Of a DNA stretch of 46,903 bases, positions 794-43,900 are shown piece after piece (the first letter of the stretch is position 1; each line of letters starts with the position of its first letter). The notes under the pieces are model-generated. The model made no database searches and was not told the DNA's origin. It saw only the letters and a list, made by a program, of their open reading frames with translations. The translations under genes were made by a program, and so were the position numbers. The stretch comes from Gammaproteobacteria bacterium (GTDB taxonomy: Bacteria; Pseudomonadota; Gammaproteobacteria; Steroidobacterales; Steroidobacteraceae), in the NCBI GenBank assembly GCA_027365225.1, contig DAHXNV010000015.1, positions 1 through 46,903 on the forward strand. Reading direction: 5' to 3'.

Positions 794-1107
794 TGCCCGA
801 GGTCGGAGTCGAACCGACACGCTTTTAAGGGCGGCGGATTTTCATCCCACTTCGACTTTCGTCGCCTCCGGGGCAAAGGCTGTCGGAGTTCGTGGGCTGG
901 AGCACGCCTTCACCGTAGCCTTGCGGCCGTAGGTGCCCGCCGTCTGCTCTCTACACCTTCCCCGCATCACGTGGGGCTTGGCTCGGCATGAGCTCGAAAT
1001 GCTTCAGGGCCTCTACCGAGTTTGACGGGCTTCACCTCGGGGATTTCTCCGCGAGGGCTCAAGTTGTCGTCTGAGTCCGCTGCGTCTACCAATTCCGCCA
1101 CTCGGGC
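794..1107 (-). tRNA. tRNA-Leu(CAA) split by a group I intron
   Basis: Read on the minus strand, the exons are 1107-1073 and 842-794. Together they fold into a class II tRNA. The acceptor stem is GCCCGAG (1107-1101) with CTCGGGC (801-795), 7 of 7 pairs, and the discriminator is A at 794. The D-arm region GCGGAATTGGTAGACGC is typical of tRNA-Leu. The anticodon stem GCGGA (1080-1076) pairs with TCCGC (838-834). The spliced loop is CTCAAAA, giving anticodon CAA. A 15-nt variable arm (833-819) and T-arm GTCGG-TTCGACT-CCGAC (818-802) follow. The CCA end is not encoded. The loop is interrupted after C34 by 230 nt. Removing the insert restores a canonical tRNA-Leu; leaving it in gives no tRNA. Confidence 0.93.
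843..1072 (-). ncRNA. Group I self-splicing intron in the tRNA-Leu anticodon loop
   Basis: The 230-nt insert ends in G (843), the expected terminal guanosine of group I introns. It carries the conserved core: CGAGCCAAGC, then GGTGTAGAGAGCAGACGGC (minus strand, 957-939), then GGTGAAGGC and TGCTCCAG. P7 can form between GAGCA in the first core segment and TGCTC (904-900). The internal guide GAG (1060-1058) pairs with exon bases CUC (1075-1073) to form P1. The layout matches the Azoarcus tRNA-Ile and especially the cyanobacterial tRNA-Leu(UAA) introns as I remember them, including the TTGAG guide region and the GCGAAAGC/ACGAAAGT hairpin near the 3' end. No homing endonuclease frame fits inside. 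Confidence 0.93.
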
Positions 1108-1124: not shown

Positions 1125-1188
1125 CGGCGGCGCGGGCAATGTGGATACCGGTGCAGGGTGCGGGAGGGCTGGGCGCTCCGTGTACCAT

Positions 1189-2247
1189 GTGCGAGTGGAA
1201 CGTAATGACTTCTCCTACGATCTTCCGGCCGATCGGATTGCCCAGTACCCGCTCGCGGAGCGCTCGGCCAGCCGCCTGCTGACACTCGATCGCACGAGCG
1301 GCGCATGGGCGGACCGTGCGATGCGCGACCTCCCCGATCTGCTACGCCCGGGTGATCTGCTGGTCCTGAACGACACTCGCGTCGTGGCCGCGAGGCTGCG
1401 CGGCGCCAAGCCCTCTGGCGGGCAGGTCGAGGTGCTGCTCGAGCGGGCGGTCGCTGAGCGCGAGGCGCTCGTGCAACTGCGGGCGAGCAAGCCGATCCGC
1501 CCGGGACTGCGGATCACGAGCGCCGGCGGGGTGCTGGAGGTGCTCGGGCGCGAGGCCGATCTGTGGCGCATCCGCCTGCCCGCCGCCGTGCTGGAATTCT
1601 TCGACCAGTGGGGAGAGATCCCGCTGCCCCCTTATATCCAGCGCGCCGCTGATGCGTCGGATCGCGAGAGGTATCAAAGCCTGTTTGCGCGCGAACCTGG
1701 CGCCGTCGCCGCGCCCACTGCGAGCCTGCACTTCGATGCGCCGCTCCTGCAGGCGATCGCCGCCCGAGGCGTCGAGCGGGCGTTCGTGACACTGCACGTC
1801 GGCGCAGGTACATTTCAGCCGGTGCGCGCCGAGCGCCTGGACGAGCACGTCATGCACGCCGAGCGGGTCACGGTGAGCGCGGCGACGTGTGAGGCGATTG
1901 GCCGGGTCCGCGCGGCGGGCGGCCGGGTAGTGGCCGTCGGGACGACTGTGGTTCGGGCGCTCGAATCGGCGGCGCTCGCCGCGGCCGAGCATGGCGCGGC
2001 AGCTCTCGAGCCCTGGTCCGGAGAGACCCGGCTGTTCATCCGTCCGGGCTTTCGCTTCAGGGTGATCGACGCGCTGCTGACCAATTTTCACTTGCCCGAA
2101 TCGACGCTGCTGATGCTCGTGTGCGCCTTCGCGGCCCGCGAGCCCGTCCTGCGCGCCTATCGGCACGCCGTCGCGGCTGGCTATCGCTTCTTCAGCTATG
2201 GGGACGCGATGTTCCTGGCCGATGAGCCACGCGCCGCGGCCTTGTGA
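1189..2247 (+). CDS. queA: S-adenosylmethionine:tRNA ribosyltransferase-isomerase
   Basis: QueA transfers and isomerises the ribose of SAM onto preQ1 in the wobble position of tRNA, giving epoxyqueuosine. The product is 352 residues, close to the E. coli length of about 356. Family segments are clear: LVLNDTRVVAARLRG, TLHVGAGTFQPVR and TNFHLPESTLLMLVCAF. I chose the GTG at 1189 because it gives MRVERNDFSYDLP, matching the usual QueA N-terminus. The frame remains open to an ATG at 1141, and a GTG at 1195 is a rival. It leads a queA-tgt-yajC-secD-secF cluster, with tgt starting 45 bp later and acting in the same queuosine pathway. Confidence 0.96.
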   Translation: MRVERNDFSYDLPADRIAQYPLAERSASRLLTLDRTSGAWADRAMRDLPDLLRPGDLLVLNDTRVVAARLRGAKPSGGQVEVLLERAVAEREALVQLRASKPIRPGLRITSAGGVLEVLGREADLWRIRLPAAVLEFFDQWGEIPLPPYIQRAADASDRERYQSLFAREPGAVAAPTASLHFDAPLLQAIAARGVERAFVTLHVGAGTFQPVRAERLDEHVMHAERVTVSAATCEAIGRVRAAGGRVVAVGTTVVRALESAALAAAEHGAAALEPWSGETRLFIRPGFRFRVIDALLTNFHLPESTLLMLVCAFAAREPVLRAYRHAVAAGYRFFSYGDAMFLADEPRAAAL

Positions 2248-40957: not shown

Positions 40958-43900
40958 ATGGACGGGCCGCCGGTCGTTGCGCTGTCGGGGCGCTCGGCGC
41001 TCTCGGGCTTCCGGATCGAGAAGCTGCTCGCACGGCTGCGGACGCTCGACCCGGCGGTGAGCGTTCTCAGCGCGCGGTTCGTGCATTTCGCCGCGCTCGA
41101 TCGGTCGCTCACGGCCGATGAGCGGGAGCGCCTGGAGCGGCTGCTCACCTACGGTCCGCGGGACGTCCCGTCCGAGCTTGGCGGACAGACGCTGCTGGTG
41201 GTGCCGCGCGAAGGGACGATCTCGCCGTGGTCGAGTAAAGCCACCGACATCATCCGCGTGTGCGGCCTCGAGGCCGTCCAGCGCGTCGAACGGGGCGTCG
41301 AGTATCGGGTGAGGGCTGACCGCCCGCTCGCACCTGAGGCGCTCCAGCGCCTCGCGGGGGTCCTGCTCGACCGCATGACCGAAATGGCCCTGCTCGATAC
41401 GGCGCAGGCGGCTCGCCTGTTCGAGCACTCGCCGCCGCGGCCCGCGCGCCGGGTGGCGCTCGCCGGCGGGCGCGCCGCGCTCGATCGGGTCAACCGCGAG
41501 ATGGGTCTCGCGCTGTCGGGGGAGGAGCTCGACTATCTGCTCGCGAGCTTCCGCCAGCTCGGCCGCGATCCGACCGATGCCGAGCTGATGATGTTCGCGC
41601 AGGTGAACTCCGAGCATTGCCGCCACAAGATCTTCAATGCCCGCTGGATCATCGACGGGCAGGAACGCGCGCAGTCGCTGTTTGCGATGATTCGCCACAC
41701 GCACGAGCGCCATCCGCAGGGCGTGCTGTCAGCCTACCGCGACAATGCCGCGGTGATGGAGGGATCGCACGGCTGGCGCTATTTCGCCGATCCGCGCACC
41801 GGCGCCTATGTCGAGAGCGCCGAGATGATCGACATTCTGATGAAGGTCGAGACGCACAATCATCCCACCGCGATCTCGCCGTTCCCGGGCGCGGCGACCG
41901 GCGCGGGCGGGGAGATCCGCGACGAGGGCGCGACGGGGCGCGGCGCCAAGCCCAAGGCGGGATTGACCGGGTTCACCGTATCCAATCTGCGTATCCCGGG
42001 GTACGAGCGGCCATGGGAGCGGCCGTTCGGGCAGCCCGAGCGCATCGCCTCGGCGCTCACCATCATGCTCGAGGCGCCGATCGGCGCGGCATCCTTCAAC
42101 AACGAGTTCGGGCGGCCGGCGATCTGCGGATATTTCCGTACCTTCGAGCAGCGCTGTCCGGGTGATCCGCCCCACCGCGCGCGCGGTTACCACAAGCCCA
42201 TCATGATCGCCGGCGGGTTGGGTAACGTGCGCCGCGCCCACGTTGAGAAATCCACCGTCCCGGTGGGCGGCCGGCTGATCGTACTCGGTGGGCCGGCCAT
42301 GTTGATCGGCCTCGGCGGCGGGGCCGCCTCCTCGCTCGGCAGCGGCGCCTCGCACGCCGATCTGGACTTCGCGTCCGTGCAGCGCGGCAACGCCGAGATG
42401 CAGCGGCGGGCCCAGGAGGTGATCGACGGCTGCTGGGCGCTCGGCGCGGCCAACCCGATCCTGCTCATCCATGATGTCGGTGCGGGCGGATTGTCCAATG
42501 CGGTGCCCGAGGCGGCGGCGCACAGCCACCGCGGCGCGCGCATCGATTTGCGCGCCATTGCGAGCGCCGAGTCGGGTCTCTCGCCGCTCGAGCTGTGGTG
42601 CAACGAGGCCCAGGAGCGCTACGTCGTGGTGGTTGCCCCCGAGGATCTGCCCGTGCTCGGCGCCATCGCCGCGCGCGAGCGCTGTCCGCTCGCGGACATC
42701 GGCGCGCTCGATGCCACGGGCCGGCTGACGGTGCATGATCCGCTGCTCGGGGATGAGCCGATCGACGTGCCCCTCGAGGTGTTGTTCGGCAAGCCGCCGC
42801 GCATGACCCGCGCGGTGCGCAGTGTCCCGGGCGCCGCGGCGCCATGGGCTGCCGGCGCGCTCGATGTGCGCGCGGCGCTCTATCGCGTGCTGCGTCTGCC
42901 GGCGGTGGCGGACAAGACCTTTCTCGTCACCATCGGGGATCGCACGGTCGGCGGGCTGGTGAGCCGCGATCCGCTGGTCGGGCCCTGGCAGGTTCCGGTG
43001 AGCGACGTGGCGGTCACTCTGGCGGATCATCGCGGTCTGCGCGGCGAGGCGATGGCCATGGGCGAGCGCAGCCCGGTGGCGGTACTGGCCGCGCCGGCCT
43101 CGGGGCGCCTCGCCGTCGCCGAGGCGATCACCAACATCCTGGCGGCCGATGTCGCCACCCTCGCGCAGATCCGCCTGTCGGCGAACTGGATGGCCGCCTG
43201 CGGTGAAGCGGGGGAGGACGCGGCGCTCTACGAGACGGTGCGCGCCGTCGGGCTCGAGCTCTGTCCGGCGCTCGGGATCGCCATCCCGGTGGGCAAGGAT
43301 TCGCTCTCGATGCGCACCCGCTGGAGCGAGGGGGGCGTGGAGAAAACCGTGGTCGCGCCCGTCTCGCTCATCGTCTCGGCGTTCGCTCCCGTCGGCGATG
43401 TGCGCAAGACCCTCACCCCGGTGCTGCAGAGCGGGCCGGAGACGGCGCTGTGGCTGATCGATCTCGGCCGCCAACGGCTCGGCGGCTCGGCGCTCGCGCA
43501 GGTCCACGGTGAGATCGGCACCGAGCCGGCCGACCTCGACGATCCGCACCTGCTGGTGGGGTTGGCCGCGGCGCTAGCCGAGCTGCGCCGGGAGTCGCTG
43601 CTGCTCGCCTATCACGACCGTTCCGACGGCGGACTGATCGTGACAGTGCTCGAGATGGCCTTCGCCGGACGCTGCGGTCTGGAGATCGACCTGCCGGCCG
43701 AGCGCGGTGATCCGCTCGCGCAGCTGTTTGCCGAGGAGCCGGGCGTGGTGGTGCAGGTCACCGTGCGCGACGAGCGGCGCCTGCAGGGGATTCTGGCGCG
43801 CTGCGGGCTCGCCGCGCACGCCGTGCGTCTCGGGATGCCGCAACAGCAGCTGCGCGTGCGCATCACCCATGGCGGCGCGCCGCTGCTCGATGAGTCCTGG

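Follow-up and report, generated by a model that had tools for sequence, protein, structure and literature searches.

A tRNA-Leu(CAA) gene at 795-1107 on the reverse strand of the window, the whole stretch of 46,903 nucleotides of gammaproteobacterial DNA analysed here, is split after C34 by a 230-nt group I intron. It is very probable that this intron splices with its first cut at a C-G pair and that it belongs to a mobile lineage residing mostly in tRNA-Leu(CAA) of beta- and gammaproteobacteria. To our knowledge, a U·G wobble at the 5' splice site is near-universal in group I introns, and the C-G pair found in its place is a point absent from the first-pass annotation of this DNA, which had been made from the sequence alone. 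The parts of the locus are given in Table 1.

Table 1. Coordinates of the split tRNA-Leu(CAA) gene, its intron elements and the neighbouring gene in the window.
Feature	Position	Strand	Observation
5' exon of tRNA-Leu(CAA), positions 1-34, last base C34	1073..1107	-	ARAGORN on joined exons; same exon in intronless congeners
Group I intron, 230 nt	843..1072	-	Precise absence in 8/37 genus genomes; core model R1 143.7 bits (R1 built from 42 sequences, the window intron among them)
3' exon of tRNA-Leu(CAA), from A35 on	795..842	-	Discriminator A at 794
P1 guide GAG, pairs with exon C32-U33-C34	1058..1060	-	First G faces C34; C-G 83/83 CAA, U-G 8/8 UAA
P3 5' strand	1024..1030	-	Partner 935-944; helices 4 + 5: 97.1%, 99.5% of cells paired
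P3 3' strand	935..944	-	Partner 1024-1030
P4 5' strand UCGG	1016..1019	-	Partner 983-986; 100% paired
P4 3' strand CCGA	983..986	-	Partner 1016-1019
P7 5' strand GAGCA	945..949	-	100% paired; outer G-C 91/91
P7 3' strand UGCUC	900..904	-	Partner of GAGCA
P8 hairpin	913..933	-	Helices 11-13: 100, 98.4, 87.6% of cells paired
P9 with P9.1 and GAAA-capped P9.2	847..895	-	Helices 14-16
Terminal intron guanosine (omega G)	843..843	-	Present in window, invariant in 91 rows
queA, divergent neighbour	1141..2247	+	NCBIfam 451 bits

The first-pass annotation had named tRNA-Leu(CAA) as the host with 230 nt removed, and ARAGORN agrees with both: the joined exons are called as tRNA-Leu(caa), a class II tRNA-Leu, and with the intron option the unjoined gene is given a 230-nt intron ('gactc-Intron-aaaat'). 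Its expectation that standard annotation would miss the tRNA also held. Without the intron option ARAGORN calls no tRNA on the unjoined gene, its default scan of the window is likewise without the gene, and Rfam at the gathering score matches neither tRNA nor intron in the window. The covariance search proposed there as a check gave a sub-threshold match only, as RF00028 under a relaxed threshold aligns over its full length at 833-1082, scoring 19.2 bits (E 0.018) against a cut-off of 50 bits. In the own genome (assembly ~66% complete) a search with RF00028 gave no match. The gathering score is reached by none of 11 further intron-bearing tRNA loci (8 CAA) and by 6/20 class loci. Since the score is below threshold, Rfam alone is insufficient and was rejected as sole proof of the intron. 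The matter is settled by the intronless congener copies with abutting exons and by covariation, which outweigh the low score and uphold the claim that the insert is a group I intron. Folding energy was also rejected as proof, the near-exact intron stretch 842-1071 (one base off) folding no better than its shuffles (z -0.39). The intron is short, interrupts the anticodon loop of its tRNA and carries no endonuclease gene, as is usual for the tRNA type, and at 230 nt it is too short to hold a homing endonuclease gene; the 83 CAA introns aligned here measure 216-244 nt. For bacterial tRNA-type introns such as this one we assume the subgroup label IC3.

The comparison of related genomes with and without the insert, also suggested by the first-pass annotation, was made on 60 genomes, 37 of them in the window's genus (own included). 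A full introned tRNA-Leu(CAA) is present in 23/37 genus genomes (own included), the same gene without the insert and with abutting exons in 8/37, and neither the introned nor the intronless gene was found in 6/37. With a natural intronless copy as the query, no intact second tRNA-Leu(CAA) was found in the occupied genomes, the own assembly being ~66% complete; such a copy had been expected to speak against the reading. Over the 23 occupied genes the mean identity is 99.5% for exons and 80.0% for introns. The gene queA lies beside the tRNA in 15/23 occupied loci and in 4/8 empty genomes (L044, L045, L047, L048), and was not found in the available stretch of 8/23 occupied and 4/8 empty loci, some of which end early at contig ends. 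As queA adjoins both occupied and empty genes, the site is the same for that part of the loci only.

Two genomes show other arrangements of this gene. G029 (97% complete) holds only a 24-nt 3' remnant of tRNA-Leu(CAA) (L248, G029:C23:50025-50048), the full gene not being found. In L058 (G004:C200), the 3' part of an intronless tRNA-Leu(CAA), with the anticodon loop, recurs three times after the gene at a spacing of 4.7-6.0 kb, and the first interval contains a TOTE-type primase/helicase gene and a Fic gene. Of 11 long ORFs at this locus 7 were searched, and no integrase was found among them. The copies of the 3' part are perhaps attachment sites of islands, and an attachment site of this kind would be split by the intron.

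The distribution of the CAA introns was followed with an exact pattern scan of one genome per species, which required T33, C34, G-AAAA and AGAGNNNNGACGG, and left the base facing C34 free. The scan gave 92 loci, 22 of which duplicate introns from the genomes of the window's genus; as it demands a fixed pattern, its matches are close to that pattern and divergent CAA introns are missed. The hosts are nearly all Pseudomonadota, either by a record title of Proteobacteria, Pseudomonadota, Gammaproteobacteria or Burkholderiales or by the known placement of the taxon named there. They include Bordetella, Cupriavidus, Comamonas, Acidovorax, Polaromonas and Paraburkholderia, as well as Candidatus Vallotia, Rhodanobacter, Lysobacteraceae, Solimonas and Steroidobacteraceae MAGs. 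The gammaproteobacterial records among these carry the same introns, in line with the host lineage given by the first-pass annotation. One locus is alphaproteobacterial (L065, a MAG), and the exception by record name is one Mycobacterium (L074), a contig that is placed among proteobacterial introns and is suspected to be mis-binned. A wider pattern, applied to 196 genomes of the window's order, matched in 21; among the 27 matches listed, 20 are UAA and 7 are CAA, the latter spread singly over seven genomes of the window's genus. A match to the core model was obtained in 64/369 sampled gammaproteobacterial genomes, weak matches included. The gammaproteobacteria thus seem to hold many group I introns of this kind, whose host tRNAs are lost by ARAGORN default and by Rfam.

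The structure, P1-P9 and the acceptor stem, was drawn up manually on the window sequence and scored over 83 distinct CAA and 8 UAA introns (91 rows). Seven rows were left out, namely L041 and L118 (N; one contig), L123 and L140 (an earlier GAAAA inside the intron ends the pattern), and L094, L116 and L122 (unparsed); six of the seven could be checked, and have TC before the cut and TGAG after it. The group I core P3-P8 with the P3/P7 pseudoknot is present over the 91 rows, with 96.4% of 5632 cells paired. Pairs changing on both sides number 38/62 (33/55 in the intron and 5/7 in the acceptor stem); shuffles give 20.4 (sd 2.4), with 0/500 as high, and slid structures 9 to 20. Relatedness is not preserved in the shuffles, and a structure taken from one of the rows tends to outscore its slid versions. 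P4 is invariant across the 91 rows and hence neutral as covariation, and P6 has 99.3% of its cells paired. Three of the five P7 pairs have changed on both sides between two types of intron: P7 is GAGCA/UGCUC in 82/83 CAA introns, and GACUU, GACUA or GACUG, with pairs exchanged on both sides, in the 8 UAA introns and L065. By analogy with known relatives, the outer G-C of P7, found in 91/91 rows, is presumably the guanosine-binding pair. A conserved G-C pair in P7 is described as binding guanosine in the accessible part of one paper (PMC5192423). The omega G settles the 1-nt ambiguity of the junction, its invariance being partly by construction as pattern and parsing required a G before AAAA.

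The guide GAG is invariant in the 91 rows, and the base that its first G faces follows the host. C34 stands opposite this G in 83/83 distinct CAA introns aligned, and U34·G is formed in 8/8 UAA introns aligned. Likewise, three tRNA-Leu(UAA) hosts of gammaproteobacteria (L156, L157, L159) carry introns with the CAA-type GAGCA P7 and the same guide GAG, lying after U34. The exon also ends in U in 27/27 non-CAA class loci with both ends (L165, cut off at its 5' end, being left out), which is a reading and not a blind test as the exon ends were set by hand from tRNA continuity and the terminal G. The CAA introns thus depart from the U·G rule, which is usual rather than defining, and they are counted as a variant. 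Replacement of the U·G pair in Tetrahymena mutants reportedly weakens the first step, so unaided splicing at C-G could be poor. No natural case of C-G at the 5' splice site was found in the literature searched. On balance we favour, with some reserve, the reading that a horizontally mobile group I lineage has dispensed with U·G. In this reading the CAA anticodon imposes a Watson-Crick C-G pair, with which the lineage functions across dozens of species, and its core remains functional with U·G in tRNA-Leu(UAA). If this is true, splicing speed would set the supply of the UUG-reading tRNA. With U·G relatives that carry the same guide beside it, this natural C-G family lends itself directly to testing what the U·G pair does.

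In a tree of 118 introns, the GAGCA-P7 CAA introns and the three UAA introns of this P7 type fall together (96/96), with the three nested within the CAA introns; a CAA clade that excludes them is not rejected (p 0.496). The bootstraps of the tree had not settled (0.981), and L065 and L163 lie close to where long branches come together. One common origin for the whole set of CAA introns, L065 included, is only marginally rejected (p 0.049), this group having been named after the tree was seen and L065 being a long branch. The nearest neighbour of the GAGCA group is L158, a group I intron in tRNA-Ser(UGA) after U34, on a long branch beside the CAA lineage. Bacterial families are mixed in the tree; for example, a Comamonas MAG, a Lysobacteraceae MAG and an unclassified MAG group together (100/98). 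Sequence identities follow the same pattern. For example, identity between the isolates Cupriavidus basilensis and Rhodanobacter PCA2 is 92% for the intron and 92% for the exons, where lineage differences persist; between the MAGs Comamonas SCN 67-35 and Lysobacteraceae bin.379 it is 94% for the intron and 92% for the exons. Between beta- and gammaproteobacterial hosts, the introns are about as alike as the exons or more so (16 chosen loci, best 40 of 120 pairs). The control with flanks is weak, since cheap gaps give ~0.52-0.82 for most pairs, related or not, and the nearly identical exons of Burkholderiales are uninformative on transfer within that group. The likeness of introns across families, at or above that of exons, and the mixed tree speak for transfer of the intron only, at a fixed site, which may proceed by recombination or by reverse splicing.

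According to the mechanism proposed here, the intron GAG would pair with exon C32-U33-C34 to form P1, and a guanosine bound at the G-C pair of P7 would cut after C34, at a C-G pair in place of the usual U·G. The freed exon would then attack the junction behind the terminal intron G, so that C34 is ligated to A35 and the anticodon CAA is regained. The lineage would move between beta- and gammaproteobacteria at the same site, leaving the exons behind. We infer splicing in the cell, its independence of protein and the way of moving. A slower first step may be tolerated because tRNA-Leu(UAA) can also read UUG.

Splicing in the cell may instead require protein help, an RNA chaperone or a synthetase-like splicing factor offsetting the C-G pair. 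The weaker first step expected of C-G would favour such help, as would the core itself, which has no change obviously tied to C34 and is of the same type in the three UAA hosts. The tRNA introns of Azoarcus and Anabaena self-splice, however, and we regard a need for protein as unlikely. It is far less probable that the intron is a decayed relic in a tRNA pseudogene, tolerated because tRNA-Leu(UAA) reads UUG. The gene may be dispensable, as G029, 97% complete, lacks tRNA-Leu(CAA) except for its 24-nt remnant, and the use of UUG for 31/268 leucine codons in seven window genes is weak for or against a relic. A pseudogene was nevertheless rejected by exon conservation (99.5% across the 23 occupied genes) and covariation, as compensating changes keep the core helices and the guide GAG is invariant in 91 rows.

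The two readings that concern the cut and the source of the intron are less probable still. A 5' splice site after U33 would keep U·G, and the tRNA-Leu(UAA) intron L163 seems, by hand reading, to be cut there with the guide GGUC. In the CAA gene, however, this cut would remove C34 and shrink the anticodon loop to six bases or, with the 3' site shifted as well, change the anticodon to GAA; moreover, the base preceding the terminal G varies and the guide has no register with both U33·G and C32-G. The site was rejected on these grounds and is the least probable of all readings. Hardly more credible is a jump of the genus's own tRNA-Leu(UAA) intron into tRNA-Leu(CAA), even though the introns of both hosts share UUGAG at the guide and interrupt the anticodon at the same place. 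Their P7 differs by compensated pairs, and a tree with the UAA and CAA introns of the genus (7 + 22 rows) as one clade was rejected, its log-likelihood being 310 lower (AU p 0.001). Of the two origins offered by the first-pass annotation, transfer between genomes at the same tRNA is therefore supported, and a move from UAA to CAA within the genus is not. An older UAA-to-CAA jump, at the root of the CAA lineage, is possible.

Other tRNAs of the genus and class are also split. Hand reading of 30 class loci gave 2 CAA (the window one of them), 20 Leu(UAA), 3 Arg(CCU), 2 Lys(UUU), 1 Thr(UGU), 1 Ser(UGA) and 1 truncated. For several of these loci the names given by ARAGORN differ from the reading, with Thr(agt) for Lys(UUU), Tyr for Thr(UGU), Phe for L160 and Ser(cga) for L180. 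Within the genus, strong full-length non-CAA core matches occur in 17/37 genomes, the host Leu(UAA) being read in 11 and inferred in 6, and G015 has a weaker core match in a Leu(UAA) called by ARAGORN. Three loci (L249, L250, L252) are tRNA-Ile(CAU) genes with a group I intron after U36, called Gln by ARAGORN. The genus thus holds three introned tRNA kinds, Leu(UAA), Leu(CAA) and Ile(CAU), and G002 carries two of them. Similarly, a Burkholderiales MAG (L088) carries an introned tRNA-Leu(UAA) and an introned tRNA-Leu(CAA) at 827-1149 and 1415-1730, 265 bases apart, with introns of different lineages.

Plasmids carry such genes as well. In an E. coli plasmid (L255, CP042600.1), a gene called tRNA-Stop by ARAGORN is by hand reading a tRNA-Leu(UAA) with a ~220-nt group I intron; it is flanked by an IS26 transposase on one side and AAA-ATPase/predicted AAC(3) genes on the other. 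Nearly the same stretch is present in an Acinetobacter plasmid (L256, NZ_OR492670.1). Of the matching plasmid records, 1242/1256 cover at least 80% of the query; 4 records were read. The nearest introned tRNAs to the plasmid gene, among nine loci, are in two genomes of the window's family (80% over 311 nt), a possible hint at where the plasmid segment came from. In the Gordonia phage Daredevil (NC_048021.1), a stretch at 41863-41970, where no feature is listed, is 73.5% identical to the 3' core of the intron.

A group I intron in a bacterial tRNA-Leu(CAA) was not found in the literature searched by title and abstract start; most subscription papers were outside reach and a prior description is possible. 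Likewise, no paper in the literature searched was found on gammaproteobacterial tRNA-Leu(UAA) introns with the GAGCA P7 (L156, L157, L159). The bacterial host tRNAs named in the accessible parts of nine papers are tRNA-Leu(UAA), fMet, Ile2 and Arg, with Gly and Lys also in cyanobacteria, and the carriers named there are cyanobacteria and some alpha- and betaproteobacteria (PMC8450103, PMC3984707, PMC8172020, PMC6125680, PMC4033280, PMC11408192, PMC5733544, PMC3679873, PMC5192423). Group I introns in tRNAs of CPR genomes are mentioned in one of these excerpts, which leaves the host tRNAs unnamed (PMC8172020). Another, which names tRNA-Leu(UAA) as a host, places most bacterial and plastid tRNA introns at 37/38 (PMC4033280); the proteobacterial UAA introns of this analysis disagree with that position, as they lie after U34. 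Excerpts of two further papers give Ile2 introns of Acidovorax and Burkholderia (PMC8450103), and group I introns of Ile(CAU) and Arg(CCU) (PMC5733544).

Among these systems, the introns of tRNA-Ile(CAU) (Azoarcus, Acidovorax, Burkholderia) and tRNA-Arg(CCU) resemble that of the window as small group I introns in the anticodon loop. They differ in position, since the Ile(CAU) introns of this genus and the Arg(CCU) introns of the class lie after U36 and the window's lies after C34. The cyanobacterial tRNA-Leu(UAA) intron sits between bases 34 and 35 with U34·G at the splice site and, like that of the window, is a group I intron that interrupts a leucine tRNA within its anticodon. In contrast to this UAA-hosted family, the intron of the window has a host with the anticodon CAA, C34-G, a P7 of its own and a proteobacterial carrier, and its nearest relatives, in a tree without cyanobacteria, are proteobacterial CAA introns. 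Closest to the CAA introns among UAA introns are L156, L157 and L159, which have the lineage and the guide GAG in common with them and differ by the UAA host and U34·G.
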